Shown: positions 3,933-19,579 of the stretch, in pieces
Numbering within the stretch: the stretch's first letter is position 1
Layout of the letters: each line of letters opens with the position of its first letter
Origin: Streptosporangiaceae bacterium
GTDB lineage: Bacteria; Actinomycetota; Actinomycetes; Streptosporangiales; Streptosporangiaceae
Direction of reading: 5' to 3'
Assembly: GCA_030039095.1 (NCBI GenBank)
Contig: JASHQP010000664.1
Coordinates: 1-20,468, forward strand
Length of the DNA stretch: 20,468 nt
Notes under the pieces: generated by a model
What the model was told of the DNA's origin: nothing
Databases searched by the model: none
Seen by the model: the letters and a program-made list of their open reading frames with translations, nothing else
Translations under genes and position numbers: made by a program

Positions 3933-3950
3933 CGCAGACTCCTTTGGTTG

Positions 3951-4363: not shown

Positions 4364-4711
4364 GTGGGAACCGCCCTGCTGACCGGAGACCTCAGCCAGC
4401 CGTGGACCGGCCTGCCGCGCGGGGAGGACTGGCGGTCAGCGGCGGCGTGCCAGGACACCGACCCTGACCTGTTCTTTCCGGTGTCGGGATCCGGAAGGTC
4501 GCTGGACCAGGCCGAGCAGGCCAAAGCCGTCTGCGCTGGCTGCCCGGTCCGGCCGTCCTGCCTGGCATTTGCCCTGCGCACCGGCCAGGCGCACGGGATC
4601 TGGGGTGGCCTCACCGAGGAGGAGCGCCTGATCGCGCGAGCCCGGCCAGCGCACAATTGGCGGGTGTCAGCGAGGCGCTCTAGTGGATCCGGCGATGTGA
4701 GCCCTTCATGA
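4364..4711 (+). CDS. WhiB-family iron-sulfur transcriptional regulator
   Basis: A 115-residue Wbl protein, a family confined to Actinobacteria and their phages. These proteins bind a [4Fe-4S] cluster and modulate transcription by contacting the primary sigma factor. The four cluster cysteines are Cys29 (AAACQDTD), Cys57, Cys60 and Cys66 (CAGCPVRPSC), with the usual C-x2-C-x5-C spacing. The GIWGG turn at residues 78-82 and the following basic RLIARAR stretch are standard. The start is a GTG at 4364; the upstream ribosome site (AAGAG-like) is weak, and no better start exists before Cys29. The last 32 bases overlap the convergent damaged membrane gene. The tail after residue 95 is Ser/Arg-rich and variable. 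No target can be inferred. Confidence 0.93.
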   Translation: MGTALLTGDLSQPWTGLPRGEDWRSAAACQDTDPDLFFPVSGSGRSLDQAEQAKAVCAGCPVRPSCLAFALRTGQAHGIWGGLTEEERLIARARPAHNWRVSARRSSGSGDVSPS

Positions 4712-4960
4712 CGCGAAGCAACGGCAGCGCCGTCGCGAGAACGAGCACGCCGAAGAGCGTGATGAGCCAGGGCACGTTCGACTCCCAGTCATGGCGGATG
4801 CGAGCCCAGTTCCCGAGCCAGTTCGCGGTGACGTCGAGCGCCATCACCGCGGCGGCCAGCCAGATGCCCTCCCGCCGGCGAAGCCGATGAGGTACACCGC
4901 GAGAACCCATCGGGCCCATCGCGGCAGATCAGCCCACGCTGTCTGCAGGCGAACCGTCAC
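4680..4960 (-). pseudogene. Small integral membrane protein broken by frame change/internal deletion
   Basis: Two frames on the minus strand together look like one membrane protein. From a GTG at 4960 the first frame reads VTVRLQTAWADLPRWARWVL, then AVYLIGFAGG, a good N-terminus with a membrane helix, but it stops at 4844. The second frame takes over at about 4876 with EGIWLAAAVMALDVTANWLG, then VPWLITLFGVLVLATALPLL, and ends RVMKGSHRRIH at 4680. These are two further hydrophobic segments. The only ATG-initiated reading of the second frame would begin with a non-hydrophobic, Arg-rich antisense-like stretch, which argues against an independent gene. The shift falls in the run GCCGGCGGGAGGGC. 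I recall related actinobacterial proteins having about 40-50 more residues between the halves, so an internal deletion is likely, not just a one-base shift. Function unknown. It overlaps the whiB-like 3' end. Confidence 0.6.
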
Positions 4961-4987
4961 GCGCGCAGCGTAGACCCACCCGCGACA

Positions 4988-7396
4988 TCAGCTGCGGTCG
5001 CGTTCGTCCAGCGCGCGCAGGGCTTCGGTGAACGGCCGCTCCAGCCAGGCGAGATGATCGGCCTCGCCGTGATGGTGCGTCGTGAGCTGGTCGGATCTGC
5101 GGACCGCGGTGTGCCGCACGTATTCGCGGGCACCCTCGACAAGCGTCCGGATGTAGCGGATGCCTTCGCGGTCGGACATCGCCCAGTCACCGCCGCAGGC
5201 GACGTAGACCGGCGAGGTGTGCGCGAAGACGCGCCGGCCCCATTCGTCGAGGTGGCAGTCGACGCCGAACGCCCGGCAGGCGATCCACGAGTTGCGGCCG
5301 ATCCGCAGTTCCTCGCTGATCTCGGCCTGCCGCCCGCCGCTGGCGTCGGCCCTCGCAACGACCTCGCCGTTGCGCACGACCTCGAGCGAGCGGAGCGGGA
5401 AGATGCTGCGCACCGTGGCACGCACGCTGACCGTTCCGGGTCCGGACAGCTGCACGGTCGAGCCTGGCTCGCGCCCGTCGACCGAGAGCGTCACCAGCGG
5501 CCCGCCGGAAAGGAACGTGCGGCCCGACCGCACAGCCCGGCACCAGGCCTCATAGCTGAACTCCTCGTCCAGCCGGGCGTACGTGCGGTACAGCCCGACC
5601 GGGACGGCACTCGACATCTTGTCCGTGCCACCGACGAGCGGCAGCCGGTAGCCGCTGTTCAGGTACCGGTAGTACTCGAGCAGCCGGTCGTCGGTCTGGT
5701 TCAGTATCTCGACGGCGTCGGCGCGGCCGGTCGCGACCAGGACGGCGGGCTCGCCGTTCGGATCCGGGAAATGCGCGGCGACGACGGTGCCGCCCTGGGC
5801 GTGGGTCCGGTCGGCCCAGTCGCTCATCGTCGCGTCCAGCGCGCCGCCGAGCTCGGCCTCGTCGGGGCCGTCGCTGCACCACGGCATGACCGGCTCCTTC
5901 AGGCCCCACAGGAGCATGTGGCCGAGCATGTGCTGCCGGTTCTCCTGCCCCACGTAAGTCACGTAGCCGCCGCCGTCGATGACGGCAGGCCGGCCGCGGA
6001 AATCCTCGGTGTTGGTGAACAGCGCGCCCCACTGCGTCTGCAGCAGATTGACGACATGCAGATCTTCACCCCGCTGCTCGAGCTGAGCGCCCGGGGTGGA
6101 CAGGAAGTGGACGTGCGAGTCGCCGGAGAACCACCCGTCCGAGGCCAGGTCGGCAACGCGCCTGATCCGCAGCGTCAGGTCCCGCTGACCCGGCTCGATC
6201 CGCATGGTCTGCCGGAGCGGTTCGTACTCGAACCCGCGCGCGACGTCCACGACGACGTCGCCGCGCGGCAGCCATCCCTGGCAGGTGCCGTCGATGTACG
6301 CGTAGCTGCGCTGGCTCAGCCGCACGTCACCGCCGACGTCGTAATGCCAGCTGCCGAGATTCTGCGTCACGTGATTGTGGTGGCCGTGCGGCTGGTACGG
6401 AATCCCCGCGGCCGAGCGGAAGTGGACCCGGCACGGCACCGGCCGCCCTGTCGCGTCGTCGACGACGCTGACATGCACCCAGTTGCGGCCGCCTTCGACC
6501 AGCTCGAGCGAGACCTGGCCAGCCTCCGCCCGCCCGTCGCGTTCCACGTCGGCCCAGCGCAGCTGGCCGAGCTCGGCGCCGCCCTGCCGGACCGTCACGG
6601 TCGCCGACGGCAGCGCGGCGATCGACGTGTACGCGGCCGTTCCGTCGGCCGCTCCCCAGCCGCCGCGGTCGTCCTCGCCAGCCAGCGGCTGCGGATATGT
6701 CGCGGTACCCCGGTCCACGTCGACATCGAAGACGCCGTCCCGCCCGTCCTTCGGCACGATGCGCACCGGCCGCCCCGGCTCGCGGACGAACGGATACTCA
6801 TCAACGTCGCTGATCGTAACGCCCGCCACGATGAACCGCGTGCCGCGCGGAATGAACTCGATCCGCTCGACCGCCCGGTCCGGATGAGGATTCTCCCAGC
6901 ACCACAGGAAATACGCGGCGGGCCATCCCAGGTCGTGCTCTGCCAGGCGGGCCCCGGAGTCGGCCCACTTGCCCTCGAAGCGCGCCATCTTGTGGTCGCT
7001 GGTGTCGGTGACGGCCAGGAACGGCAGGCGCCCCCACCCGGGCGGCACCACCTGAATCTCGAACCGCTCCCGGATGGGCGCGACCACGACCTCGCCGCCG
7101 GCCAGGTGAAACGCGTACTCCGCGACGGTCTGCCCGACAGCGTGGCCGCCTGGTGCGCCCGGCTCGAGCAGCCGGTGCGCGACGATCACCCGCGGCGCAA
7201 GCCGGCCGATCCCCACCGGCGTCGGCGCGGTGGGCAGCAGAAAGCACCGCTCCGCAGATTGTGCCTCGGACCCGATCAGGAACGGCAGGCCGCGCAGGTC
7301 CACTCTCCCGAGCGGAACATCGCCCGGCTCATCGCCAAGGGCCTCCACACCGGCGTTGCAGACAGCGGACAGGTCAACTGGCTCATAGCTCGGCAT
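4988..7396 (-). CDS. CehA/McbA-family PHP-domain metallohydrolase
   Basis: A large protein of 802 residues from the ATG at 7396. A TTG at 7438 would add 14 residues; neither start has a clear ribosome site. It resembles the CehA/McbA family, named after carbaryl hydrolases that cut N-methylcarbamate esters, although most members have unknown substrates. The N-terminal 400 residues are beta-rich and include a Gly/His patch (QPHGHHNHVTQN). The PHP-type metal site follows: SGDSHVHF with His428 and His430, His493 in GHMLLWG, His542 in VVAAHFPDPN and Asp592 in GGTDKMS. A beta-sandwich-like C-terminal part follows (GGPLVTLSVDGREPGSTVQL). No signal peptide or membrane segment is evident, so a cytoplasmic enzyme is likely. 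It lies 60 bp downstream of the pucR-type gene on the same strand and may share its transcript. Ester, amide or carbamate hydrolysis is the best guess; the substrate is open. Confidence 0.82.
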   Translation of the reverse strand: MPSYEPVDLSAVCNAGVEALGDEPGDVPLGRVDLRGLPFLIGSEAQSAERCFLLPTAPTPVGIGRLAPRVIVAHRLLEPGAPGGHAVGQTVAEYAFHLAGGEVVVAPIRERFEIQVVPPGWGRLPFLAVTDTSDHKMARFEGKWADSGARLAEHDLGWPAAYFLWCWENPHPDRAVERIEFIPRGTRFIVAGVTISDVDEYPFVREPGRPVRIVPKDGRDGVFDVDVDRGTATYPQPLAGEDDRGGWGAADGTAAYTSIAALPSATVTVRQGGAELGQLRWADVERDGRAEAGQVSLELVEGGRNWVHVSVVDDATGRPVPCRVHFRSAAGIPYQPHGHHNHVTQNLGSWHYDVGGDVRLSQRSYAYIDGTCQGWLPRGDVVVDVARGFEYEPLRQTMRIEPGQRDLTLRIRRVADLASDGWFSGDSHVHFLSTPGAQLEQRGEDLHVVNLLQTQWGALFTNTEDFRGRPAVIDGGGYVTYVGQENRQHMLGHMLLWGLKEPVMPWCSDGPDEAELGGALDATMSDWADRTHAQGGTVVAAHFPDPNGEPAVLVATGRADAVEILNQTDDRLLEYYRYLNSGYRLPLVGGTDKMSSAVPVGLYRTYARLDEEFSYEAWCRAVRSGRTFLSGGPLVTLSVDGREPGSTVQLSGPGTVSVRATVRSIFPLRSLEVVRNGEVVARADASGGRQAEISEELRIGRNSWIACRAFGVDCHLDEWGRRVFAHTSPVYVACGGDWAMSDREGIRYIRTLVEGAREYVRHTAVRRSDQLTTHHHGEADHLAWLERPFTEALRALDERDRS

Positions 7397-7456
7397 GCGC
7401 CCGATCGTAGGCAGATTGACCGGGCTGATCCCAGCCAATTTCGGCTCCGTGGACGA

Positions 7457-9016
7457 TCATGATGGACTGGCGTCTGGGTCACTCAGTGCGCGGGCTCGGC
7501 GATCTTCGACGGCCCCGCGGTGTTGCTCGCCACTGTGAGCTGTCTGACCAGAGCTGAGTATTTCGCTGGCGCTGATGGCGAGCCACAACTCTGCCATGTC
7601 CTGGAAGCGGCGCGGGTGTCTGCCGGTGAGTTCCTCCACCTGCGCCATCCGGTGGATGACGGTGTTGCGGTGTACGTCGAGTTGGCGCGCGGTCGCCGTG
7701 ACGTTGCCGTCTAGCTCGAGAAACACCCGGGCGGACTCGAGCAGGTTCGTGCCGTGCCTGTTGTCGTGCCGGGCGAGGGGCCCGATGATTTCGTCGACGA
7801 TCCCGGTTAGGGCTCGGGGGTCGGCGGGTAGCCAGGTCGCCGAGCGCTGCATTGCTGAGAAGTCCACCAGCGACCGCCGCTGGGAACGCGCGTAGCGGAG
7901 CGCCCACAGGGCCTCGCGGCGGGGGACAGCCAGGGACTTCCTGGCGCGGAATGGCCGGCTGACACCGACGTGTGAGCGCGGGGTAGCAGCCAGGAATCCG
8001 AGGTCACTGGCCGGTTGCTGGAGCAGGACGTACAGTTCGCGTTGCTGCAGGATGAAGTGGGGGATGTCGGCCTCGATCAGCCGCTCGTGCAGTGCTTCGT
8101 CGGGGCCGAGGCCGTTGGACACGGCGGCAAGAATGAGGGGGCGGCCGGGGTCGAGATCGGCCAGCCGGAGCCGTGTCCGGATAGCGTCCCGGTCGAGCAT
8201 TCCGCTGAGCATCTCGCCGAGTGTCTCGGCGCCTTCCCGGCGCAGTGCCTCTCGTTCGCGTTGCAGGTTCGACAGTTCGAGGGCCGCGATGGTGGCTATG
8301 TGCCGCACGGCGAGCATGCCCAGTGGCTCGCGCCCTGGTTGCTCGGCCGCGACAAGGTAGCCAGCGATGCGGCCGCGGAGTGGGATGGGCACTGACACGC
8401 GGCCGCGGTCGCCGGGCGATGGGTCGGTTCCTGACGTGGGTGGCGCTATCCATCCCTGGGGGGCGCCTGGGATTCCGCGGATCAGCGGCCGGCCGGTGGG
8501 AGAGCACAGGTGCAGGCGGTACCCAGAGGTTTCCGAGAGGCGCGCGAAGAGCTGTGGCGGGCCGAGGCCGTGACTGGTGGCGAGCCGGAGGGTGTCGAAG
8601 ATTCGCAGGTAGGAGAGCAGGCGACGCTCGGATTGCTCGCGGTTGGCGGCAGTGACCAGGCTGGTGATGGCGAGGTAGGGGACCTCGTAGGCGACTTCGA
8701 GGACCGGCAGGTTCAGCGAGTCCGCCGTGGCCAGCATCTGCGGGGTTAGAGGTGGAGCGGACATCCCGTTCGCTATCGCGACCCCCGCTATGCCGTGGCT
8801 GACGATTCGCTCCAGGTAAGCGCACTGTCGCGCCGCGGTGCGCGGGATCGCCAGGCCGGTGGTCAGGATGAGCCCGGGCCCATCGATCCATGGCGTGGGG
8901 TCCTTCAGCTCGCACACATGTGCCCACTCGACATCGCGCTCCAGGCCGGAGGAGCCTGCCAGCACTGTGATGCCCAGATGGGGCACGCTGACCAGGTCGC
9001 CGATTGTGAATCCCAC
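7457..9016 (-). CDS. PucR-family transcriptional regulator
   Basis: A 519-residue regulator starting at a GTG at 9016 with GGAGAG four bases upstream. Residues 1-125 form the PucR N-terminal sensory domain (FTIGDLVSVPHLGITVLAGS, VEWAHVCELKDPTPWIDG, ILTTGLAIP). A central region (about 150-400) follows, with a GAF/CdaR GGDEF-like character. The C-terminal PucR helix-turn-helix is at about 440-470, with QLDVHRNTVIHRMAQVEELT and the following RRFQDMAELWLAI. Family members sense metabolites of purine, hydantoin, amino acid or polyamine catabolism and activate adjacent genes. It is divergent from the aldehyde dehydrogenase gene and sits upstream of the metallohydrolase gene, the classical position of a local regulator. 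The 270-bp region between 9017 and 9286 holds palindromes on both candidate promoters. Confidence 0.94.
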   Translation of the reverse strand: MGFTIGDLVSVPHLGITVLAGSSGLERDVEWAHVCELKDPTPWIDGPGLILTTGLAIPRTAARQCAYLERIVSHGIAGVAIANGMSAPPLTPQMLATADSLNLPVLEVAYEVPYLAITSLVTAANREQSERRLLSYLRIFDTLRLATSHGLGPPQLFARLSETSGYRLHLCSPTGRPLIRGIPGAPQGWIAPPTSGTDPSPGDRGRVSVPIPLRGRIAGYLVAAEQPGREPLGMLAVRHIATIAALELSNLQREREALRREGAETLGEMLSGMLDRDAIRTRLRLADLDPGRPLILAAVSNGLGPDEALHERLIEADIPHFILQQRELYVLLQQPASDLGFLAATPRSHVGVSRPFRARKSLAVPRREALWALRYARSQRRSLVDFSAMQRSATWLPADPRALTGIVDEIIGPLARHDNRHGTNLLESARVFLELDGNVTATARQLDVHRNTVIHRMAQVEELTGRHPRRFQDMAELWLAISASEILSSGQTAHSGEQHRGAVEDRRARALSDPDASPS

Positions 9017-9104
9017 GGCTCTCTCCGTGCTCAGGGCATCCGCGCAGCCGCCGCTCCGGCGGACACCGGCTGGTCACTCAGGCGGGCTGCATCGCTGTGG
9101 CTTC

Positions 9105-9134
9105 ATTGTCCCGGCCAAGGTTCTGTTTGTGCAA
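9105..9134 (-). promoter_or_regulatory. Candidate pucR-type gene promoter
   Basis: Read on the minus strand, a -35-like TTGCAC (9129-9134) and a -10-like GACAAT (9105-9110) are separated by 18 bases, about 90 bases before the regulator's GTG. The -35 overlaps the GTTTGTGC arm and the TGTGCAAGTGCACA palindrome, consistent with autoregulation. The assignment rests on consensus matching only. Confidence 0.4.
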
Positions 9135-9188
9135 GTGCACATCAGCCAACCATCTCGTTGTGTCGATTGCCAATTGACCAGCACAAAC
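9125..9188. promoter_or_regulatory. Paired operator candidate in the divergent pucR/aldehyde dehydrogenase region
   Basis: GTTTGTGC (9125-9132) and its exact inverse GCACAAAC (9181-9188) are 56 bp apart start to start. The left arm is embedded in a near-perfect palindrome TGTGCAAGTGCACA (9128-9141, six-base arms, two-base centre). The left site covers the minus-strand -35 and the right site lies inside the spacer of the plus-strand promoter. Symmetric placement suggests looping or co-operative binding by the local PucR protein, which is an inference. Confidence 0.5.
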
Positions 9189-9203
9189 GATGATCTTTAG
9201 GCT
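9174..9203 (+). promoter_or_regulatory. Candidate aldehyde dehydrogenase operon promoter
   Basis: TTGACC (9174-9179) and TAGGCT (9198-9203) with an 18-base spacer fit a primary sigma promoter of the TTGACN/TANNNT type. The operator arm GCACAAAC lies within the spacer. The start of transcription would fall near 9210, giving a leader of about 75 bases that contains the hairpin at 9208-9231. Confidence 0.45.
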
Positions 9204-9207
9204 GGCG

Positions 9208-9231
9208 GGGCACAGCGGGCAGTGTGCCCGC
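9208..9231 (+). promoter_or_regulatory. Leader hairpin with two mutually exclusive stems
   Basis: GGGCACA (9208-9214) pairs with TGTGCCC (9223-9229), while GCGGGC (9215-9220) pairs with GCCCGC (9226-9231) across a five-base loop. The two stems share the bases 9226-9229, so they cannot form together. It could be a DNA-level dyad for a regulator or a small RNA switch; the sequence does not decide. Confidence 0.35.
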
Positions 9232-9286
9232 AAAGGCCCGCGATCAGTCGTGGCGAGATGGCTTCGCTCCGGAGGGAGAGAGGCAG

Positions 9287-10723
9287 ATGACTACGGTCGA
9301 TACGCACAGGCAGGCGTTCATCGGCGGCGTGTGGGTCGATGGTGGTGACGGCACGATCGAGGTCCGCTCCCCGCATTCGGGCGAGGTCGTCGGAACGGTG
9401 ACCCGCTGCAGCGCTGATGATGTGGACCGGGCGGCCCGGGCGGCGCAGGCGGCCTTTCCCACGTGGAAGCAGACCCCGCTGGTGAAGCGTGTGGATCTGC
9501 TTTACCGCGCCTATGAGCTGTGCAAGGAGCGGAACGAGGCGATTGCGCGCCAGATCTCCCAGGAGATGGGCAAGACCATCCGTGAATCCCGGGAGGAGAT
9601 GGTCGAGTACGCATGCGAGCACTTTCGCCGCGCTGCGGAGGACGTGCTGCGCTACCGGGGCCAGGTGCTGCCGTCAACCCAAGAGCGGACCGCAGGTAAG
9701 CGGATTGTCGTCACGCAAGAGCCAGCCGGGGTGGTAGCGGTGGTGACGCCCTGGAACTTCCCGGTCGACATCGCTGCCATCGCCATCTGCTATGCGCTCG
9801 CGATCGGCGACACGGTTATATGGAAACCCAGCGAGCACGCACCGCTTTCATCCGCGATGCTCGCCGAGGTGTTCCACGACGCCGGCTTCCCTCCGGGCAC
9901 CGTGAACATGGTCACCGGCGAGGCAGAGGTCGGTCACGCGGTGGTGGCGCATTCCGGCGTCAGCGCCGTCGTCTTCACCGGCTCCACCAAGACCGGCGAG
10001 GCGATCGCCTCGTCCATCGGGCTGAAGAAACGGGTGCTCGAGCTAGGCGGGAACGGCCCCCTCATCGTGCGTGCTGATGCTGACCTCGAGCGCGCCGCCG
10101 ACGCCGCCATCCTTGGCTGCTATTACCTGGCTGGCCAGTGCTGTACCGCAGCTGAGCGGCTGCTGGTCCACGACTCGGTGCGCGAGGACTTCATCGGCCA
10201 CCTCACCGACCGGGCCGGCCGACTGCGGGTCGGAGACCCACTCGACGAAACGACCGACATGGGTCCACTGTGCAATGCCGGTGTCCTGGCGCGGACCCGT
10301 GAACACGTCGACGATGCGGTCGCCAGCGGAGCCAAGATCGTGCTAGGTGGCACCACGAACGGCCTGTACTTCGCGCCCACCGTACTGGACCGGGTCACGC
10401 CGGAGATGCTGATCGCCCGCGAGGAGACCTTCGGTCCCGTGGCACCGATCATGCCGTTCGGCACCGATGACGAGGCGATCACGATCGCCAACGCGACCGG
10501 CTACGGGCTGACCGCCGCGGTCTTCACCAATGACTTGCGGATGGCCTGGCGTTATGCGGAATCGCTGAATCACGGCACGGTGATGGTGAACGAGACCACC
10601 AACTACTGGGACCAGCTGGCACCGTTCGGTGGCCGCGGAAAGTCCGGCACCGGGCGTGAGCTTTCCTCCTGGATGCTGGACGCCCTTACCGAGACGAAGC
10701 AGATCGTGTTCGACATCGGGTAG
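9287..10723 (+). CDS. NAD(P)-dependent aldehyde dehydrogenase
   Basis: A 478-residue class I/II-like aldehyde dehydrogenase, which oxidises an aldehyde or semialdehyde to the acid. The ATG at 9287 follows a purine-rich GGAGGGAGAG site. Catalytic features include the oxyanion Asn157 in VTPWNFP, the general base Glu252 in VLELGGNGP and the nucleophile Cys286 in AGQCCTAAE. The cofactor Rossmann signature FTGSTKTGEAIA and the EETFGPVAPIM and FGGRGKSGTGRE motifs also fit. The length and the ELGGNGP variant suggest the succinate-semialdehyde/benzaldehyde/vanillin-type branch, but substrate prediction within this superfamily is unreliable. It is the first gene of a plus-strand run with a nine-base gap to the next gene. 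Together with the regulator upstream it is probably the entry point of the inducible operon. Confidence 0.93.
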   Translation: MTTVDTHRQAFIGGVWVDGGDGTIEVRSPHSGEVVGTVTRCSADDVDRAARAAQAAFPTWKQTPLVKRVDLLYRAYELCKERNEAIARQISQEMGKTIRESREEMVEYACEHFRRAAEDVLRYRGQVLPSTQERTAGKRIVVTQEPAGVVAVVTPWNFPVDIAAIAICYALAIGDTVIWKPSEHAPLSSAMLAEVFHDAGFPPGTVNMVTGEAEVGHAVVAHSGVSAVVFTGSTKTGEAIASSIGLKKRVLELGGNGPLIVRADADLERAADAAILGCYYLAGQCCTAAERLLVHDSVREDFIGHLTDRAGRLRVGDPLDETTDMGPLCNAGVLARTREHVDDAVASGAKIVLGGTTNGLYFAPTVLDRVTPEMLIAREETFGPVAPIMPFGTDDEAITIANATGYGLTAAVFTNDLRMAWRYAESLNHGTVMVNETTNYWDQLAPFGGRGKSGTGRELSSWMLDALTETKQIVFDIG

Positions 10724-10732
10724 GAGGCCGCC

Positions 10733-10951
10733 TTGGGAAACGACGGACTGCAGCTACCGGCCAGCCAGCTGGACGCGCTGCACGCTATCCCCGCCGACGA
10801 CATGCTCGTGAACCCGGCGGAGCTGGAATCTGTGCTGGAGGAGCCGGGCAGCGAAGGCCTCGTCTCCCAGAGGGACTTGCTTTGGTGGACCCTCGGATCG
10901 CTCATGGTCGCGATCATCGCGGCGATCTGCTGGGCCGCGAGCGGACACTGA
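10733..10951 (+). CDS. Small single-pass membrane protein, uncharacterised
   Basis: A 72-residue protein starting at a TTG, chosen because AGGAGG (10722-10727), overlapping the aldehyde dehydrogenase stop codon, is five bases upstream. Residues 1-47 are acidic and soluble (LPASQLDALHAIPADDML, then PAELESVLEEPGSE). Residues about 49-70 form one hydrophobic helix, LLWWTLGSLMVAIIAAICWA, and the chain ends at SGH. The acidic part is probably outside or cytoplasmic depending on topology; Arg47 just before the helix favours a cytoplasmic N-terminus. It sits 9 bp after the dehydrogenase and 11 bp before the permease start, each with its own strong ribosome site, so it is very likely a real gene. I know of no named family. 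An accessory subunit of the NCS1 permease is the obvious contextual guess. Confidence 0.75.
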   Translation: MGNDGLQLPASQLDALHAIPADDMLVNPAELESVLEEPGSEGLVSQRDLLWWTLGSLMVAIIAAICWAASGH

Positions 10952-10962
10952 GGGAGGCCACC

Positions 10963-12429
10963 GTGGCATCTGCTTCTGTCGACAGCGTCCCGCCGAGATC
11001 TTCCCGCTATGGCCAGGACGTCCTGCCGCTTCCCCGCGCCGACCGGTACGCAGGGTCACTGCTGATGTTCTGGCTGTGGGCTGGCGGCAACGTCCTGCTC
11101 ACCACGTTCCTCCTCGGCGGTTACTACGCGAATGCCCTGGGGGTCACCGGCCTGATCGTCGCGACCTGTGTCGGGAGCCTGCTCGGGTGCTTGTGGCCGG
11201 CCCTCACCGGGCTGCGCAGCGCGCGCTACGGCGTAGATGAGTACGTCGGCATGCGGTCGACGTTTGGCACCTACGGTTCCTATATCGGGGTTGTTCTTCT
11301 TGTCGTGATCAACTTCGGCTGGATCGGGATCCTGGCCCAGATCGCCGGCAACTCCGGCATTTCCGCCGTCAAGGAACTCACCAAGTCGGGCGATTTCTCC
11401 ACCCGATTCGGCGCGAACTGGTTCACCCTTTTCGCGCTCATCTGCGGAATCGTCATCCCGGTAATCATGCTGTATATCAGCCCGAAGACCGTCTTCCGCC
11501 TGGTCAAGTGGGCGGTGCCGCTGCTCATCCTGTTCGCGTTCGTGCTGCTCGGGAAGCTGCTCGCCACCTACAGCTGGGGCAGGCTCAACGCGATCCACCC
11601 CGACCACTCGGTGACCTTCGCCTACGCCATCGAGGCGGCCGTCGCTTACAACATCTCCTGGTTCCCGTACATGGGTTCGTGGAACCGGTTCGCCAAGACG
11701 CAGAAGGCGGCGTTCTGGGGCGCCTGGGGCGGGCTGACCGTCGTGAGCATCATCTTCGCCGTCATCGGCGGGATGGCCGCGCTCGCCTTCAACACCGCGG
11801 ACCCGAGCGCGTGGGCGACCAAGTCCGGCCTGGGCATCGCGGCCATCTTCATCATCGTCTTCTCCACGATCATCAACTGCGCCATGCTGTTCTACGCCTC
11901 CGTCATGGCTCTCAAGGTGGCCATCCCCAAGGTCAACTACCATCTCCTCGTCCTGCTCGTAGCCATCCCGTCCATCCCGTTCCTGTACCAGGGGACGCTG
12001 TCGGCGAAATTCAACGACATCCTCACGGTGGTCGGCGCGCTGGAGGCCCCGTACTGGGGGATCGCGCTCGGCGACTACTTCCTGCTGCGCCGCGAGCGGC
12101 TATCGGTCCCCGATCTGTACCGGCGGCACGGTCCCTACTGGTTCGCCGGCGGCTTCAACCTCGGCGCGATCGTGATCTGGGTGCTCGGGGTGGCACTGTG
12201 GCTGTGGCTCGCCGGATCCACCTCTCTCATTTCGTGGGCGCAGAGTTTTGGCACCGGCGTGCACGTTTACAACGTGATAACGGCGTCCACCCCGGTGATC
12301 TTGCTGTGCGCGGTCGCGTACTACATCTTTGGGCACCGCCTCGGATGGATGCTGCGGTCGGCAGCCGAGCCGGCGGGGAAAGAGCCAAGGGCGGCCACCG
12401 CCGGAGTGCCCGAGACGGATGGCGGCTGA
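10963..12429 (+). CDS. NCS1-family permease (purine-cytosine/hydantoin/allantoin-type)
   Basis: A 488-residue polytopic membrane protein beginning at a GTG preceded by GGGAGG (10952-10957, five-base spacing); upstream ATG/GTG codons would read into the preceding gene in another frame. About twelve hydrophobic segments can be counted, beginning with SLLMFWLWAGGNVLLTTFLL. NCS1-like features include the early Ser-rich cytoplasmic stretch, VGSLLGCLWPALTGLRSARY, the GMRSTFGTYGS segment and the SWFPYMGSWNRFAKT loop. NCS1 proteins import nucleobases, hydantoins, allantoin or related ring compounds with Na+ or H+. The last bases overlap the next gene's start by 11 bp, indicating translational coupling to the FAD enzyme, so imported solute is probably fed directly to that enzyme's pathway. 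Exact substrate unknown. Confidence 0.88.
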   Translation: MASASVDSVPPRSSRYGQDVLPLPRADRYAGSLLMFWLWAGGNVLLTTFLLGGYYANALGVTGLIVATCVGSLLGCLWPALTGLRSARYGVDEYVGMRSTFGTYGSYIGVVLLVVINFGWIGILAQIAGNSGISAVKELTKSGDFSTRFGANWFTLFALICGIVIPVIMLYISPKTVFRLVKWAVPLLILFAFVLLGKLLATYSWGRLNAIHPDHSVTFAYAIEAAVAYNISWFPYMGSWNRFAKTQKAAFWGAWGGLTVVSIIFAVIGGMAALAFNTADPSAWATKSGLGIAAIFIIVFSTIINCAMLFYASVMALKVAIPKVNYHLLVLLVAIPSIPFLYQGTLSAKFNDILTVVGALEAPYWGIALGDYFLLRRERLSVPDLYRRHGPYWFAGGFNLGAIVIWVLGVALWLWLAGSTSLISWAQSFGTGVHVYNVITASTPVILLCAVAYYIFGHRLGWMLRSAAEPAGKEPRAATAGVPETDGG

Positions 12430-14884
12430 TCCGGTGGAGCACGGTATTCCCGCCCGGGCCCAGGTCGTCGTGGTGGGAGGAGGGATCGTTGGCTGTAGCA
12501 CCGCGTACCACCTGGCCAAGCGTGGGTGGACCGATGTGGTGGTGCTGGAGCGCAAGCGCCTGACCTCGGGCACCACCTGGCACGCCGCGGGCCTGATCAC
12601 CCAGGCCCGGCCCACCTTCGGCACGCGGGAGATCGTCAAGCGAAGCCTGGAGGTCTTCCGGTCGCTGGCAGGGGAAACCGGATTCTCGCCGGGATTCGAG
12701 CGGACCGGCACCCTGCACCTCGCCGACAGCGACGAACGGTGGGAGGAACTTCGTCGGCAGGCATCGGCCGCCCGCTCGAACGGGATCCGGGCCGAACTGC
12801 TGTCCCCCGAGGACGCCGCGGAACTGTTCCCGCCTCTGCACGTCGCGGACCTGACGGGAGTCGTCAGTTACCCCGACGACGGCCGCGGCAATGCGGCCGA
12901 CACCACCATGGCGCTGGCCCGCGGCGCCCAGCAACTCGGCGTGCAGATCTTCGAGAACACCAAAGCCACCGGCGTCACCCGCCGGGGCGGACAGGTTAGG
13001 GCGGTGAGAACGCCGGACGGCGAAGTCGAGGCCGAGTATGTCGTGAACGCCACCGGCATGTGGGGCCGGGAATTTGGCGCAAAAGCCGGAGTGAGGGTCC
13101 CGCTGCAAGCGCTGGCCCACTACTACGTGATCACCGACGCCATCCCCGGCCTGCCCCGGGGACTGCCGACGATCAAGAGCGCACCCGACTACGCCTATGT
13201 CAAGAACGAAGGCGCCGGGCTCATGGTCGGCTTCTTCGAACCAGGCAGCTACCCCTGGTCCCCCCGCGGCATCCCCGGTGACGCGGAGTTCACCAGGCTG
13301 CCCGAGGACTGGGATCATCTCGGCCCCTTCTACGAGAAAATGATCAAGCGCCTGCCGGTCCTCGCCGGCACAGGAATCCGGCTGCATTTCTGCGGCCCGG
13401 AAAGCTTCACCCCCGACGGGCTCTACCACCTCGGTCAGGTCCCGGGCCTGCATAACTATTTCGTCGCGGCGGGCTTCAACTCCGTCGGCTTCCTCAGCGG
13501 CCCCGGCGCCGGCGCCGTGCTTGCCGACTGGATCATCGATGGCCGCTCGCCGCTTGACCTGCCCGAGGCCGACCCCCGCCGGGTCGCCCCGCACGAGACC
13601 AACCGGCGCTTCCTGGAGCAGCGGGTCACCGAAAGCCTGGACCTCGCTTACGAGATCCACTGGCCCTTCCAGCAGCGCACCAGCGCCCGGGGACTGCGCC
13701 GCAGCCCGCTGCACGAACGCGTCGAAGCCGCCGGGGCTGTCTTCGGCGAGCTGCTGGGCTGGGAGCGGGCCAACTGGTACGCGCCCCCCGGCGTCCCCAG
13801 AACCTACGAGTACTCCTTCGGGCGGCAGAACTGGTTCGAGCACTCGGCGGCCGAGCACCGGGCCGTCCGGGAAGCCGTGGGGCTGTTCGACACCTCATCC
13901 TTCGGCAAGCTGCTGGTCCAGGGCCGGGACGCGGAGGCTGTGCTGCAGCGCGTCTGCGCGAACAACGTGACGGTCGATCCCGGCCGCATCGTCTACACCC
14001 AGTGGCTCAACGAGCACGGCGGCATCGAAGCGGACGTGACCGTCACCCGGCTCGGCGAGCAGCAGTTCCTGGTCCTGTCCGGCCCGGCCACCATTACCCG
14101 TGACCGGGACTGGCTGGAGCGGCACATCGGCCCGGGTGATTTCGCCACCGTCACCGACATCAGCGCCACCATGGCCATGGTTCCCGTCATGGGCCCCCGT
14201 TCACGGCAGCTGCTGCAGTCCCTCACCGACGCCGACCTCTCACCGGAAGCATTCCCGTTCGGGACCTCACAGGAGATCGATCTCGGATGCGCCTTCGTGC
14301 GCGCCACCAGGATCACCTACGTCGGCGAACTCGGCTGGGAACTGCTCATCCCAGCCGACCTCGCTGTCCACGTGTATGAGACTGTGATCACAGCCGGCGC
14401 GGCGCTTGGCATTCGCCACGCCGGCTACCACGCCCTGGACTCCCTGCGATCGGAGAAGGCGTACCGGAGCTGGGGCCACGACATCTCCGGCGGCGATACC
14501 CCTCTGGAAGCCGGCCTCAGCTTCGCGGTCGCCTGGGACAAGCCAGGCGGCTTCATCGGCAGGGAAGCCCTGCTCCGCCAGCGTGAGCAAGGAGTACGGC
14601 GTCGGCTGGTGCACTTCACCCTCGACGACCCGCAAACCCTCGCCTACCACGACGAGCCCATCTACAGGGACGGCGAACAGGTCGGCCACCTGTCCTCGGC
14701 CGCGTACGGGCACACCCTCGGCCGGACCGTGGCGCTCGGGTACGTGACCGCGCCAGCGCCAGGCACGGCACCGTCGTGGTTTGCGTCCGGCCGTTACGAG
14801 ATCGAGGTCGCGACGCAGCGGATCCCGGCCCAAGCCTCGCTGCGGCCCTTCTACGACCCGAAGGGGACCCGGGCGCGATGCTAA
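12419..14884 (+). CDS. Dimethylglycine/sarcosine dehydrogenase-type FAD oxidoreductase fused to GcvT domain
   Basis: An 821-residue two-module enzyme. The N-terminal DAO/FAD module has the dinucleotide motif GGGIVG at residues 20-25 and His55 in SGTTWHAAGL. In mitochondrial and bacterial dimethylglycine and sarcosine dehydrogenases this is the residue covalently linked to FAD. The FAD module ends with FNSVGFLSGPGAGAVLADWI near residue 375. From about residue 460 the GcvT (aminomethyltransferase) module follows: YEYSFGRQNWFEHSAAEHRA, VGLFDTSSFGKLLV, RITYVGELGWELLIP, ALDSLRSEKAYRSWG and the folate-barrel C-terminus. Such fusions oxidatively remove an N-methyl group and pass it to tetrahydrofolate as 5,10-methylene-THF. 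The ATG at 12419 overlaps the permease end by 11 bp. Length fits the family and no damage is seen. Substrate could be dimethylglycine, sarcosine or another N-methyl amine. Confidence 0.9.
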   Translation: MAADPVEHGIPARAQVVVVGGGIVGCSTAYHLAKRGWTDVVVLERKRLTSGTTWHAAGLITQARPTFGTREIVKRSLEVFRSLAGETGFSPGFERTGTLHLADSDERWEELRRQASAARSNGIRAELLSPEDAAELFPPLHVADLTGVVSYPDDGRGNAADTTMALARGAQQLGVQIFENTKATGVTRRGGQVRAVRTPDGEVEAEYVVNATGMWGREFGAKAGVRVPLQALAHYYVITDAIPGLPRGLPTIKSAPDYAYVKNEGAGLMVGFFEPGSYPWSPRGIPGDAEFTRLPEDWDHLGPFYEKMIKRLPVLAGTGIRLHFCGPESFTPDGLYHLGQVPGLHNYFVAAGFNSVGFLSGPGAGAVLADWIIDGRSPLDLPEADPRRVAPHETNRRFLEQRVTESLDLAYEIHWPFQQRTSARGLRRSPLHERVEAAGAVFGELLGWERANWYAPPGVPRTYEYSFGRQNWFEHSAAEHRAVREAVGLFDTSSFGKLLVQGRDAEAVLQRVCANNVTVDPGRIVYTQWLNEHGGIEADVTVTRLGEQQFLVLSGPATITRDRDWLERHIGPGDFATVTDISATMAMVPVMGPRSRQLLQSLTDADLSPEAFPFGTSQEIDLGCAFVRATRITYVGELGWELLIPADLAVHVYETVITAGAALGIRHAGYHALDSLRSEKAYRSWGHDISGGDTPLEAGLSFAVAWDKPGGFIGREALLRQREQGVRRRLVHFTLDDPQTLAYHDEPIYRDGEQVGHLSSAAYGHTLGRTVALGYVTAPAPGTAPSWFASGRYEIEVATQRIPAQASLRPFYDPKGTRARC

Positions 14885-15038
14885 GTTCCCGTGGCCATTC
14901 CATCGGAAACCCTGGGCATAACGGCGGGAGAATAAACAAGCTGTACCCACTCCACCCGGGAAGAGTCGCCCTGGTCGGAGGGCGGCCCGACGCGTTGCAT
15001 GCCGCTTGCCAGGAACGCGGGTAAACGAGACGCGCGGT
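14885..15038. other. Intergenic gap, nothing recognised
   Basis: These 154 bases after the FAD-GcvT stop include an AT-richer run (GAGAATAAACAAGCTG near 14927), but no convincing hairpin terminator or promoter pair could be identified. Confidence 0.4.
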
Positions 15039-15215
15039 GTGCTGGACGTCACCGCGACGCTGGACCGGCCGGGTGTGAAGGCCAGCGAGGTGATCGTCGA
15101 TGAGGACGGCTACGTCGAGCTGCGCTACTGGAACCCGCCGACTGCCACCCCGGAGCAGATCACCTCGGTCATCGTCCGCGCGCTGGCCGCGATCACCGTC
15201 GCGCAGCGGTCCTGA
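15039..15215 (+). CDS. Small conserved hypothetical protein
   Basis: A 58-residue soluble protein counted from the GTG at 15039 (VLDVTATLDRPGVKASEVIV); a TTG at 15006 would add 11 residues of poorer quality. The rest is DEDGYVELRYWNPP, then TATPEQITSVIVRALAAITV. It alternates short strands with one C-terminal helix and has no signal peptide or membrane segment. I recall similarly short actinobacterial proteins of unknown function, but cannot name a family. The ribosome site is not obvious. It lies between the catabolic operon and the solute-binding protein, and could belong to either. Base composition and codon use match the neighbours, which supports it being coding. Confidence 0.6.
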   Translation: MLDVTATLDRPGVKASEVIVDEDGYVELRYWNPPTATPEQITSVIVRALAAITVAQRS

Positions 15216-15247
15216 CCACGGGCCGGCGGTGCCCGGACTCCCTGCTC

Positions 15248-15292
15248 GGTATCGGTCCGTGCGGGTGCCGTGCCCGCTTGGTATCGATTCCG
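15248..15292. repeat. Direct repeat GGTATCG with ~3-turn spacing upstream of the solute-binding protein
   Basis: GGTATCGGTCCG (15248-15259) and GGTATCGATTCCG (15280-15292) share their first seven bases and a TCCG end, starting 32 bp apart. A short stem GCGGG/CCCGC lies between them. The position, just upstream of the promoter candidate at 15313-15342, would suit an activator site; this is inferred. Confidence 0.3.
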
Positions 15293-15312
15293 CAGCATCG
15301 GTGGTGTTTCTC

Positions 15313-15342
15313 TTGAGAGGCTCCCGGCCGCCGGCCTACGTT
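15313..15342 (+). promoter_or_regulatory. Candidate promoter of the solute-binding protein gene
   Basis: TTGAGA (15313-15318) and TACGTT (15337-15342) are separated by 18 bases and fit the TTGNNN/TANNNT pattern, about 50 bases before the ATG at 15395. No experimental support; alternative sites are possible in this GC-rich leader. Confidence 0.4.
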
Positions 15343-15394
15343 CGGAGAGGACAAACGTTTTTCTACGTGCTTGCCGGGCTAAGGAGATGCGACG

Positions 15395-17260
15395 ATGAAT
15401 TCGTCCCCGAAGCGGCAGGGCAGATCCAGATTCGGGCGGCATGGCAGGCTGTTCGTGGCGGGTCTCGGCGCGCTGGCGCTGGCCCTGGTCGCGGGGGCTT
15501 GCAGCAGTTCCGGCAGCAACTCGTCGTCCGGGAACACGCCGGTCAGGGGCGGCACGGCGGTGATGGCGGAGTTCCCGTCGAGCCCGCCGAACTACGTCTT
15601 CCCGTTCATGAACAGCACGTACGCCAGCAACTCCAACATCTTCGACCTGCAGTGGCTGATGTACCGGCCGCTGTACTGGTTCGGCACCGGGGCGAAGCCC
15701 ACGCTGAACACATCGCTGAGCCTGGCCTACCCGGCGACCTTCAACGGCACCACGGTCACGGTCAAGCTGAAGAACTACATGTGGTCCAACGGGACCCAGG
15801 TGACCGCCTCGGACGTGGTGTTCTGGCTGAACATGCTGCTGGCCGTGCCGCAGGACTGGGGGCTGGGCACCGGGTTCCCGCAGGACGTGCACGATATCAA
15901 GGTGGTCAGCCCCACCGAGCTGACCATGGTGATGAACAAGGCGTACTCGCCGACCTGGTTCCAGTACAACGAGCTGAGCCAGATCACGCCGATGCCGGCG
16001 GCATGGGACCGGACCGCCTCCGGGCCCACCAGCTGCGACACGACGGTCAGCGACTGCGCCGCCGTCTACAACTACCTGAACAAGCAGGCCCAGGACATGG
16101 CCGGGTACGCGACGTCCCCGATCTGGCAGGTCGTGGACGGGCCGTGGCACCTGAGCGCGTTCAGTTCCGACGGGCACATGACGTTCGTGCCGAACAAGAA
16201 GTACTCCGGCCCGGTCAAGCCGAAGCTCGCGGCGTTCGAGGAGGTGCCGTTCACCACCGACGCAGCCGAGTACAACGTCATGCAGTCACCGGCCTCCGGC
16301 ACCAAGATCGACTATGGTTACCTGCCGCCGGAGGACGCGCCCGACAAGCCGGCCGGCGCGACGACCGGCGCCAACCCGCTGCACGGCTACACGCTGGCGC
16401 CGCTGTATGCGTTCGGGATCGACTACTACTCGGTCAACGAGCAGGCCAGCACCGGCAACGCCCCGATCCTGAAGCAGCTGTACTTCCGGCAGGCGATGGC
16501 GTACCTGACCAACCAGAAAGCGGTGATCGACGGCCCGCTGCGCGGCTACGGCGTGCCCACGGTCGGGCCGGTCGGGAGCACTCCGGCAACCCAGTTCCTG
16601 TCGGCGCAGGGCAAGGCGCAGACCGCCTCCGGCGTCGGGCCGTTCCCGTTCAGCATCGCCAAGGCCAAGGCGCTGCTGACCAGCCACGGCTGGAAGGTCG
16701 TCCCCGGCGGCACCAGCACCTGCGTCGACCCGGCCAAGTGCGGGCCCGGGATCGCCGCGGGCAAGGCGCTGAGCTTCGTCTTCCCGTACGCGAGCGGGGT
16801 CGCCTGGATCACGTCGATGATGACGCAGCTGCAGTCGAACGCGGCGCAGGTCGGCATCAAGCTGAACGTGGAGCCGAAGCCGGCCAGCGAGGTCGGCGCG
16901 GGCGGCAACTGCGTCGTCGGCCACATCCCGTGCAACTGGGACATGGCCTACTACGGCAACGGCTGGACGTTCTCGCCGGACTTCCTGCCGACCGGCGACA
17001 CGCTGTTCCTGTGCAACGCCGTCGCCGACATCGGCGGGTACTGCGACCAGACCAACGACGCGATGATCGAGAAGACGCTGACCAGCAGCAACCTGCAGTA
17101 CATGTACACCTGGCAGAACTACCTGGCCACGCAGCTTCCCGAGATCTGGGCACCGGACGCCGCCGCCCAGCTCACCGAGATCGCGGACAACCTGAAGGGT
17201 GCCCTTCCGCAGAGCGCGACGCTCAGCATCAACCCGGAGAACTGGTACTTCGTGAAGTAG
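15395..17260 (+). CDS. ABC transporter substrate-binding lipoprotein, family 5 (peptide/nickel/opine type)
   Basis: A 621-residue extracytoplasmic solute-binding protein starting at ATG 15395 with AAGGAG eight bases upstream. The N-terminus is a lipoprotein signal: basic residues to Arg18, a hydrophobic stretch LFVAGLGALALALVAGA and a lipobox with Cys36, followed by a Ser/Asn/Gly linker. The mature part has family 5 features: RGGTAVMAEFPSSPPNYVFP, LMYRPLYWF, LKNYMWSNGTQVTASDVVFW (the typical W-x-DGxPxTAxDVxFW region), FRQAMAYLTNQKAVI and a C-terminal YTWQNYLATQLPEIW. Such proteins deliver oligopeptides, opines or similar solutes to a DppBCDF-like transporter. No permease or ATPase gene follows: within 20 bases of the stop the sequence turns into fragments of other genes. 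It has its own promoter candidate and may be a separate unit from the catabolic operon. Confidence 0.93.
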   Translation: MNSSPKRQGRSRFGRHGRLFVAGLGALALALVAGACSSSGSNSSSGNTPVRGGTAVMAEFPSSPPNYVFPFMNSTYASNSNIFDLQWLMYRPLYWFGTGAKPTLNTSLSLAYPATFNGTTVTVKLKNYMWSNGTQVTASDVVFWLNMLLAVPQDWGLGTGFPQDVHDIKVVSPTELTMVMNKAYSPTWFQYNELSQITPMPAAWDRTASGPTSCDTTVSDCAAVYNYLNKQAQDMAGYATSPIWQVVDGPWHLSAFSSDGHMTFVPNKKYSGPVKPKLAAFEEVPFTTDAAEYNVMQSPASGTKIDYGYLPPEDAPDKPAGATTGANPLHGYTLAPLYAFGIDYYSVNEQASTGNAPILKQLYFRQAMAYLTNQKAVIDGPLRGYGVPTVGPVGSTPATQFLSAQGKAQTASGVGPFPFSIAKAKALLTSHGWKVVPGGTSTCVDPAKCGPGIAAGKALSFVFPYASGVAWITSMMTQLQSNAAQVGIKLNVEPKPASEVGAGGNCVVGHIPCNWDMAYYGNGWTFSPDFLPTGDTLFLCNAVADIGGYCDQTNDAMIEKTLTSSNLQYMYTWQNYLATQLPEIWAPDAAAQLTEIADNLKGALPQSATLSINPENWYFVK

Positions 17261-17280
17261 CCGCCCACGATCTCGCGATG

Positions 17281-17535
17281 CCCGCCGGAGTAGAGCGGGT
17301 ACGCCGAGCCGGCCGAGGTGCCGGTCTCGGAGACGTAGTGCAGCGTTCCCGGCTGTGCGGCCAGCACCGAGACCACGGCGTGGCGAGGCACCCGGCCAGT
17401 GCGGGGACCGCGGAAAGCAGCACGTACGACGCGGCAACCTGCGCCGGGGTGAACCCGATGGACTTCAGCACGCCGAGGCGCCTGGTGCCGGCGATGACCG
17501 CGCCGCTGACCACGCTGATCACGATCAGCACCGAG
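17281..17535 (-). pseudogene. FtsX-like ABC permease fragment with frameshift
   Basis: Reading the minus strand from about 17535, AAISVLIVISVVSGAVIAGT, RRLGVLKSIGFTPAQVAASY and VLLSAVPALAGCLA are characteristic of the FtsX/MacB-type permease domain: a membrane helix, the RRLGVLKSIGFTPxQV loop, then the next helix. The frame then degenerates, while a neighbouring frame continues with VVSVLAAQPGTLHYVSETGT, so a frame change near 17385 is likely. Both ends of the gene are missing. Rightward it runs directly into the LuxR fragment on the other strand. It is too short to function as an exporter permease. The identification is by motif only. Confidence 0.6.
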
Positions 17536-17673
17536 ATCGCGGCCGAGCTGTTCATCTCGCTCGGCAGGATCAAGACTCACGTCACCCGGATCCAGGACAA
17601 GCTGGAGATCCGCAACCGGGTAGAGCTCGCCGCCTGGTCCTGGGAAAACCGGATCATGGAAAGCTCACCGTGA
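17530..17673 (+). pseudogene. LuxR/NarL-type regulator, C-terminal remnant
   Basis: The plus-strand frame gives EIAAELFISLGRIKTHVTRI, then QDKLEIRNRVELAAWSWENR and a stop at 17673. This is the recognition-helix half of a LuxR-type helix-turn-helix plus the usual C-terminal tail of NarL-family response regulators; Arg-Ile replaces the common Thr-Val before KTHV. The receiver domain and the first helix-turn-helix residues are absent, because the sequence to the left belongs to the oppositely oriented FtsX fragment. An ATG at 17509 opens the frame, but its first residues are antisense of the permease. The end overlaps the histidine kinase 3' end by 20 bases. Confidence 0.75.
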
Positions 17674-18799
17674 TGCGAAGGCCGCCCTCCGGCCTGGCGC
17701 TGACGTCGAGTTCGGCGCCGTGAACACCGGCGATCGCGCTCACAATGGCCAGGCCGAGCCCGTGTCCGGCGGCGGTTCCGGTTCGCTGGGTGCCAGTGCG
17801 CTGGAACGGCTGGAAGAGACGGTGCACCTCGCCGGGCGAGACGAGCGGCCCGGAGTTGGCGACCGCTGCGTCGGCGCGGCCGTCGGTGATCGCGGTTGAG
17901 ACCTCGACCCAGCCCCCGTCGACGTTATGCCGGATGGCGTTGCCGACCAGGTTCGTGATCAGGCTCTCGGCCAGGGCCGGGTCGCCGGTGGCCGGTGCGG
18001 CTGACAGCGCAGCGTCGACGCGGATGCCGCGGCGCTCGGCCTCCCCGTGGTGGTACAGGACGGCGTCCCGGGCGATGTCGGCGAGGTCGAACGGCTCCCA
18101 GCGCTCAATTCCGCGCTGGCTGCTGGCCAGCGTGAGCAGCGCGTCGATGAGGTGTTCCTGCTGCTCGGTCCATTGCAGTGCCGTCGTGCAGGCGGACCGC
18201 AGGGTGGCGGTGCTGGCGGCCGGGTCGGCGAGCGCGACCTGAAGCACGGTCTTCTCGGCGGTAAGCGGGGTGCGCAGTTCGTGTGAGGCGTTCGCGACGA
18301 AGTGCCGCTGCGCCTCGAACGATGCCTCGAGCCGTCCGAACAGGCCGTCGAGCGTCTGGCCCAGCCGCCGGAATTCGTCGTCGGGGCCGTCAACGGCGAG
18401 ACGCTGGCTCAGGTTCCGGGCCGAGATGTCGCGGGCGGTCGCGGTGATCGTGCGCAACGGCCGCAGGACGCGCCCGGCGATCAGCCACCCGACTCCCACA
18501 GCGAGGATCGCCATGATCACGACGAAGACCAGGCCGGCCACGTTCTGCTTGGCGTCGTGGCTGATGGTGTCCACGAACGACAGGCCGGTGCCCTGGCCGC
18601 AGGAGTGCTGGCTGTTCAGGGAGGACGAGGCTGACCCGCAATTGGTCCGGATCAGGAAGTTGGGCTTGAAGATCACCGCGAGCGAGCCGACGGCGACGCA
18701 GGAGAGGCCGAACACCGCGGCGTACAGCAAGGCGAGCTGCGCCCGCAGTGTGCGCCGGGGCAGGCGGAACGCTAGGCCCGCTGGGTGGGGGATGCGCAT
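17654..18799 (-). CDS. Sensor histidine kinase (two-component system)
   Basis: A 381-residue membrane histidine kinase starting at an ATG at 18799 that overlaps the response regulator stop (TGATG). The first membrane helix is at about residues 22-44 (LLYAAVFGLSCVAVGSLAVI). A short extracytoplasmic loop of about 45 residues with two Cys follows, then the second helix at about 88-110 (VAGLVFVVIMAILAVGVGWL). Next come a HAMP linker (RVLRPLRTITATARDISARN), the HisKA box with phospho-acceptor His173 in ASHELRTPL, and the ATPase domain: N box NLVGNAIRHN, a degenerate G1 region VANSGPLV, F box and G2 GHGLGLAIVS. The small sensor loop suggests sensing at or within the membrane, as in kinases for antimicrobial peptides or envelope stress. 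Partner: the regulator immediately upstream. Confidence 0.94.
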   Translation of the reverse strand: MRIPHPAGLAFRLPRRTLRAQLALLYAAVFGLSCVAVGSLAVIFKPNFLIRTNCGSASSSLNSQHSCGQGTGLSFVDTISHDAKQNVAGLVFVVIMAILAVGVGWLIAGRVLRPLRTITATARDISARNLSQRLAVDGPDDEFRRLGQTLDGLFGRLEASFEAQRHFVANASHELRTPLTAEKTVLQVALADPAASTATLRSACTTALQWTEQQEHLIDALLTLASSQRGIERWEPFDLADIARDAVLYHHGEAERRGIRVDAALSAAPATGDPALAESLITNLVGNAIRHNVDGGWVEVSTAITDGRADAAVANSGPLVSPGEVHRLFQPFQRTGTQRTGTAAGHGLGLAIVSAIAGVHGAELDVSARPEGGLRITVSFP

Positions 18800-19458: not shown

Positions 19459-19479
19459 GCTCCGAGGATGCCAGGCCAG

Positions 19480-19522
19480 CGGTATCAGCCCGGTTTCAGG
19501 CGGTAACACCGGGCTGATACCG
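19480..19522. promoter_or_regulatory. Perfect 15-bp inverted repeat between response regulator and ABC transporter genes
   Basis: CGGTATCAGCCCGGT (19480-19494) is repeated in exact inverse as ACCGGGCTGATACCG (19508-19522) around a 13-bp spacer containing TTTCAG. It lies 22 bp upstream of the regulator start and 57 bp upstream of the ATPase start, so a divergent operator is likelier than a terminator. Binding by the adjacent OmpR-type regulator is inferred. Confidence 0.6.
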
Positions 19523-19579
19523 GCGCCCGCGTACAACCACCTTCGACGCGGAACATCACCGAGCGGAGAAGGCGGCCAG

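Follow-up and report, generated by a model that had tools for sequence, protein, structure and literature searches.

The window, a 20,468-nt stretch of a Streptosporangiaceae contig (JASHQP010000664.1), carries an aldehyde dehydrogenase (ALDH) gene, a gene for a small membrane protein, an NCS1 permease gene and a FAD-GcvT fusion gene in one run, together with a pucR gene, a CehA/McbA-like hydrolase gene and a solute-binding-protein gene (Table 1). When the ORFs were re-derived, we found the gene set and spacing that an earlier note on this DNA had stated, with 9 bp between the ALDH and small-protein genes, 11 bp before the permease gene and 11 bp shared by the permease and FAD-GcvT genes, and its family guesses were borne out by Pfam and NCBIfam profile matches. 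The tight intergenic spacing suggests that the ALDH, small-protein, permease and FAD-GcvT genes form one predicted four-gene transcription unit, divergent from pucR. The permease reached 105 of the 353 bits set as cutoff for the NCBIfam ncs1 subfamily, and the ALDH lay below the cutoff of every one among the 25 listed of 44 matching NCBIfam models. Two further long ORFs, at 5054-7462(+) and 15100-17673(+), overlie other genes and by eye look like GC-rich shadow frames.

Table 1. Genes of the analysed region, with positions in the window and supporting features
Feature	Position	Strand	Basis and remarks
CehA/McbA-like metallohydrolase	4988-7438	-	NF038032 167 bits, cutoff 80; same strand as pucR
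PucR-type regulator	7457-9016	-	PF07905 (92.6 bits), C-terminal HTH_30 (68 bits); divergent from the catabolic genes
Aldehyde dehydrogenase (ALDH)	9287-10723	+	Aldedh PF00171 522 bits
72-aa small membrane protein	10733-10951	+	TTG start behind GGAGG; one C-terminal TM segment
NCS1 permease	10963-12429	+	GTG start; Transp_cyt_pur PF02133 130.5 bits, cutoff 23.5
FAD-GcvT fusion	12419-14884	+	DAO+FAO_M+GCV_T+GCV_T_C; DMGDH-like; start within the permease's final codons
Family-5 extracellular solute-binding protein	15395-17260	+	SBP_bac_5 PF00496 123 bits

A scan of 84,980 species genomes with an alignment of 17 permeases returned seven related loci (L001-L007), with permease relatives 56-88% identical. 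L002 has the order of the window, with PucR divergent from ALDH, small protein, NCS1 and FAD-GcvT, and its proteins are 68%, 79%, 59%, 88% and 78% identical to those of the window, respectively. L007 is rearranged, a purU-FAD-GcvT pair being divergent from ALDH-small-NCS1-PucR, and L001 is a 3.5-kb fragment with FAD-GcvT, the small protein and NCS1. Each of the seven loci has an FAD amine oxidoreductase within this gene run; it is a FAD-GcvT in L001, L002 and L007 and a DAO-type oxidase in L003-L006, where FAD-GcvT found no match. In L003 it is pucR that sits between permease and oxidase, and in L004 an ALDH gene and a small flavin/F420-type gene. ALDH relatives, 58-79% identical, were found in five of the seven loci, L001 and L003 being short contigs. 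Hence two FAD chemistries alternate on a scaffold of small protein, permease and, contig permitting, ALDH. Control by PucR had been supposed for the whole system. The pucR gene is divergent in the window and in L002; PucR relatives occur in just three of the seven loci (besides L002, in L007 at 39% and in L003 at 33% identity) and in none of the other four. As to single loci, L003 carries two tandem DAO-type oxidases at 3843-6802, adjoining permease and PucR, and the permease of L006 (5439-6778) is read in two overlapping frames, which points to a frameshift or else to faulty assembly.

Class- and order-level scans of 394, 232, 298 and 6 genomes around four seeds, with E up to 1e-90 or 1e-80, returned an A1-type permease from the seed genomes alone, so that the distribution of the cassette appears rare and patchy. 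Plasmids carry FAD-GcvT genes about 50% identical to that of the window; the three examined all lie in other contexts, the Agrobacterium one with folD, purU and ETF genes.

The FAD-GcvT protein gave near full-length matches to rat DMGDH (4pab, E 4e-140) and to DMGO (1pj5, E 5e-112). Its residues His55, His234, Tyr260, Asp539 and Glu637 align with DMGO, DMGDH having Glu at the position of Asp539, and all five are invariant in the window, L002 and L007, with one His in TTWHAAG and one in an AHYYV stretch. We take them to be the flavin-linking His, the catalytic His and Tyr, and the acids of the folate domain. Because these catalytic residues are retained, the protein is, judged by its sequence, likely to be a folate-linked N-demethylase of the DMGDH/DMGO type, so that the N-demethylation to folate that had been assigned to it is supported. 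It differs from both solved enzymes in having His-Tyr where they have His-Gln. No purU was matched by tblastn in the window, the gene being present in L007 only; no folD was recognised among the window ORFs scanned, and no amine-to-aldehyde enzyme in the window. The DAO-type oxidases of L003-L006 scored 489-505 bits against the aminophosphonate-oxidoreductase model TIGR03329, below its cutoff of 632.8, and an aminophosphonate assignment for them was rejected on these scores. Passages of one paper describe related phosphonate enzymes that turn N-methyl-aminoethylphosphonate into an aldehyde (PMC10590968).

The same enzymes might instead serve a route of the choline/glycine-betaine type, in which the ALDH would make an N-methylated glycine and FAD-GcvT would be an ordinary dimethylglycine/sarcosine dehydrogenase. 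The nearest solved FAD-GcvT structures are indeed dimethylglycine dehydrogenases, and betA adjoins the permease in Ensifer and Gemmobacter, that of Ensifer scoring over the TIGR01810 cutoff. However, no choline dehydrogenase was recognised among the window ORFs scanned, the ALDH reached 372 bits against a betaine-aldehyde model whose cutoff is 668.6, and four sister loci have another oxidase type. We regard such a route as possible but unlikely, and prefer the import and degradation of a cationic N-methylated amine, for which the permease is considered below.

The sole solved relative of the permease found by sequence search was Mhp1 (PDB 2jln), at 38 bits. We take the ligand residues of Mhp1 to be Trp117, Gln121, Trp220 and Asn318; in this weak alignment Trp117 is matched by permease Trp147, and the other three are unmatched. 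Hydantoin, which had been put forward as model substrate, was rejected on these contacts, and the permease moreover shares a clade with one from a metformin plasmid. AlphaFold modelled the window permease poorly, at a mean pLDDT of 66.3. MetT of Aminobacter is an NCS1 carrier in which, according to parts of its description, W43, W117 and W231 matter for uptake (PMC13390362). The KHPS1 plasmid permease, judged to be a MetT relative by gene context, has the equivalents W43, W118 and W232 (the latter two one residue on) and lies in the NCS1 clade of the window permease. At these positions, assuming a one-residue shift in numbering, the window permease has Thr74, Trp147 and Trp260, and hence lacks W43 of the MetT aromatic set and keeps the other two Trp residues; its catabolic neighbours also differ from those of MetT.

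Some gene contexts within this clade point to cations. Among more distant relatives retrieved from plasmids, the permease is accompanied by agmatinase, ALDH and betA choline dehydrogenase genes in Ensifer, by agmatinase and betA in Gemmobacter and by agmatinase and ALDH in Thioclava, and such relatives are also found on three metformin-degradation plasmids. In Bacillus badius the neighbours of the permease are ALDH and a DUF3445 gene. Other contexts do not point to cations, namely those of Arthrobacter (luciferase-like oxidoreductase, EthD, amidohydrolase), Caballeronia (hydrolase, oxidoreductases), Rhizobium (ALDH, saccharopine-dehydrogenase-like) and L151 (luciferase-like monooxygenase, FAD-linked oxidase). 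Because of some of these clade contexts and the two shared Trp residues, a cationic N-methylated amine appears more likely than hydantoin as the substrate. Among the contexts that suggest a cation is also that of L152, where a nucleotidyltransferase-choline/ethanolamine-kinase-like fusion precedes the small ORF and the permease; an aminotransferase gene lies two genes upstream of the fusion.

The earlier note had named a mini-membrane protein and drawn nothing from it; we consider it the most informative part of the locus. At seven of seven related loci the permease is directly preceded by a short ORF whose C-terminal part includes a hydrophobic segment. We then screened 148 loci, 137 of which had an NCS1 match; after removal of rows shorter than 300 aa and of near copies, 106 rows including the window entered a tree built by a quick method with SH-aLRT support alone and a midpoint root. 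Most of the screened loci came from genomes in the phylum of G002 and G006, 12 of the 41 plasmid records matching the Shinella permease were examined (many of the other 29 are near copies), and the window row was labelled by hand. L006, which has the small ORF and split permease frames, and the KHPS2 and MET-2 plasmids are outside the tree.

In one clade of this tree (SH-aLRT 99), 18 of the 19 rows have, directly upstream of the permease, a small ORF that encodes 50-85 residues and a membrane segment at the C-terminal end; the 19th row is KHPS1, where an in-frame stop breaks the small ORF. Of the 87 rows beyond the clade 7 pass the screen, which is about the background rate, since decoys pass it at 4/105 on the opposite strand and at 16/105 downstream. 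The clade covers Actinomycetota, Pseudomonadota and Bacillota and holds both the window permease and that of the metformin plasmid KHPS1; Fisher tests on these counts treat related rows as independent, and on the NCS1 tree a single change suffices for the small-ORF feature. L001-L007 and the plasmid annotations (including L024-L028) were already known when the screen was drawn up, and only L120 and L121 were blind rows. Both have the small ORF, and their placement in the clade is less sure because both have long branches. Of nine outsiders that were typed, two scored over the TIGR00800 cutoff, one over that of CytX and one over that of cytosine permease; the remainder gave sub-cutoff matches, one having no match at all.

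Annotation records a small 'hypothetical protein' at this place on the Ensifer, Gemmobacter, Thioclava, Arthrobacter, Rhizobium and Bacillus plasmids and in KHPS2, and an unannotated small ORF lies there in Shinella, Caballeronia and an uncultured plasmid. The 72-aa protein of the window has eight relatives besides itself among 5.8 billion proteins. None of the small proteins tested (those of the window and L005, and sets of ten and four) matched a Pfam or NCBIfam model over its cutoff, and the few sub-cutoff matches, at E 0.01-0.1, look like chance. The subtype of the window and that of L003, L005, L006 and L007 are related by profile comparison (probability 85.8, E 5e-6). Neither subtype could be linked to the small proteins of the clade's remaining half, whose profile gave probabilities of 11 and 0.4 against them. 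A profile of 12 small proteins from that half retrieved 91 proteins, taken without genomic context, none with a Pfam domain and none named beyond hypothetical or uncharacterized. What all small proteins of the clade have in common is position and topology. The tree suggests their common descent, sequence homology between the two main parts being not demonstrated.

On the metformin plasmids KHPS1 and P. mendocina MET-2 the small ORF contains an in-frame stop (L021 4807-4989 and L149 1268-1459); on KHPS2 (L150) it is intact. A first impression that the KHPS1 permease lacks the small gene was overturned when the DNA proved to hold this interrupted copy. The strains carrying these plasmids are reported as metformin degraders in sections of PMC9800807, which also mention, as part of the shared metformin region, a 'hypothetical protein' that could be the small ORF. 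As two of the three plasmids have an interrupted copy and the strains are nevertheless reported to degrade metformin, the small ORF may be dispensable there, and the chief argument that the small protein is not essential comes from these copies. They would also suit a purely translational function, in which the small ORF is a leader for the permease and the coupling matters while its product does not; such a leader would further accord with the short distances from small-ORF stop to permease start across the clade and with the weak clade-wide conservation of the ORF sequence. Three observations argue for a functional product instead. The window gene has changed moderately more at synonymous than at non-synonymous sites in two comparisons (dN/dS about 0.32 against L001 and 0.67 against L002), 17 of 72 columns are invariant among 11 sequences of the window subtype, and a C-terminal hydrophobic stretch is present in those small ORFs that had been annotated or translated ahead of the screen. 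The same stretch in the screened ORFs adds nothing, because the screen selects for it. We judge a mere leader to be improbable, and propose that the small protein is a putative auxiliary subunit of the NCS1 importer.

The two outer genes fared differently from the core. A CehA-like gene gave no tblastn match in any of the seven related loci, and the solute-binding protein none at E<=1e-3; the sequence offered was about 21 kb each for L002, L004 and L005, the only loci with full 10-kb flanks, and 17, 10.5, 7.8 and 3.5 kb for L006, L007, L003 and L001. Given its absence from all seven, the hydrolase is probably a bystander neighbour outside the conserved set and was rejected as a step of the pathway, to which it had been assigned as a PHP hydrolase; the solute-binding protein likewise appears to be a neighbour. 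Of the co-occurrence of five genes that had been expected, the core set recurs, in L002 and L007, and the hydrolase does not; nor do the related loci bear out 4988-17260 as a single unit, as hydrolase and solute-binding protein were found beside the core in none of the seven. The idea of one pathway that degrades an N-methylated ring or carbamate compound, with the CehA-like hydrolase opening the molecule ahead of demethylation, could draw on the CehA/McbA family membership of the hydrolase, on its co-orientation with pucR (18 bp between them if the TTG start is right) and on a carbamate kinase gene nearby at 2893-3807(-), but is very unlikely in view of the seven loci without a CehA-like gene, three of them with full flanks, and of the weak Mhp1 alignment, in which one of the four hydantoin contacts is matched. 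The CehA-like protein had no match in a PDB search and no Pfam match at E 0.01.

Taken together, we favour, with the scales almost level, a PucR-controlled cassette that imports and degrades a cationic N-methylated amine, with the small protein as a clade-specific permease subunit and the hydrolase as a bystander. In a first step, the NCS1 permease, complexed with the single-pass 72-aa protein, would import the amine. FAD-GcvT, whose catalytic residues are in place, would then oxidise the N-methyl group of the presumed substrate and pass the carbon to tetrahydrofolate. Conversion of the leftover amine to an aldehyde would require an enzyme that we did not find in the window; oxidation of this aldehyde to an acid would fall to the ALDH. 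In the sister cassettes a simple FAD amine oxidase would take the place of the second step and give the aldehyde directly. The small protein, to judge from gene position, topology and clade restriction, may stabilise the permease or tune its activity. A wider and more doubtful possibility is that the whole clade, which extends over three or more phyla and has the bacterial metformin importer among its members, consists of two-subunit transporters, mainly for cationic amines and guanidines rather than nucleobases.

We know of no small partner of Mhp1. MetS, a small protein, is bound to the transporter MetP. Similarly, AcrZ is a single-pass small protein tied to AcrB, as given in portions of a review of transporter modulation (PMC10710835) in which NCS1 has no occurrence. 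Both pairs resemble the arrangement proposed here in having one single-pass small protein per transporter, and differ in belonging to other transporter families. We found no report of a small partner of an NCS1 carrier in the literature covered, subscription journals being mostly outside that coverage, and the terms small protein, single transmembrane, auxiliary and accessory do not occur in the main text of the MetT paper (PMC13390362). The literature covered describes each NCS1 carrier as one polypeptide, in most cases for nucleobases and related rings. A constant small neighbour in one NCS1 clade would be a possible subunit to study. The clade also bears on the 'cytosine permease' annotation of several members that adjoin amine or guanidine genes, and the small gene needs checking in uptake assays or heterologous use of clade permeases. 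Plasmid KHPS2 with its intact small ORF, set against KHPS1 and MET-2 with interrupted copies, offers a natural comparison for the role of the small protein.

For the catabolic part, the lower nicotine pathway, as outlined in excerpts of PMC6214936, is a useful parallel: one substrate is either demethylated by MABO, with FolD and PurU, or deaminated by MAO and then handled by succinic semialdehyde dehydrogenase. The likeness to these parts of the scheme lies in the demethylating FAD enzyme or FAD amine oxidase combined with an aldehyde dehydrogenase, and in the purU-FAD-GcvT pair of L007. The window differs from the MABO operon in having no purU match and no folD recognised among the ORFs scanned, and its PucR is far under the PmfR cutoff (154 of 800 bits). 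The cassette family allows demethylating routes to be compared in nature with deaminating ones, both on the same transport scaffold.

Several other genes lie in the window. The carbamate kinase (NF009008 414 bits, cutoff 361) is about 1.2 kb from the CehA/McbA-like hydrolase, and FKBP-type isomerase-like and SDR-type dehydrogenase-like genes at 557-928(-) and 1038-1907(-) are apparently unrelated to the cassette. A histidine kinase and response-regulator pair occupies 17654-20268(-); about 270 residues precede the receiver domain in the response-regulator ORF, and its true start may be further in. Within this ORF ARAGORN placed a 100-base tRNA-Ala(CGC) at 19871-19970(+), probably a false positive.
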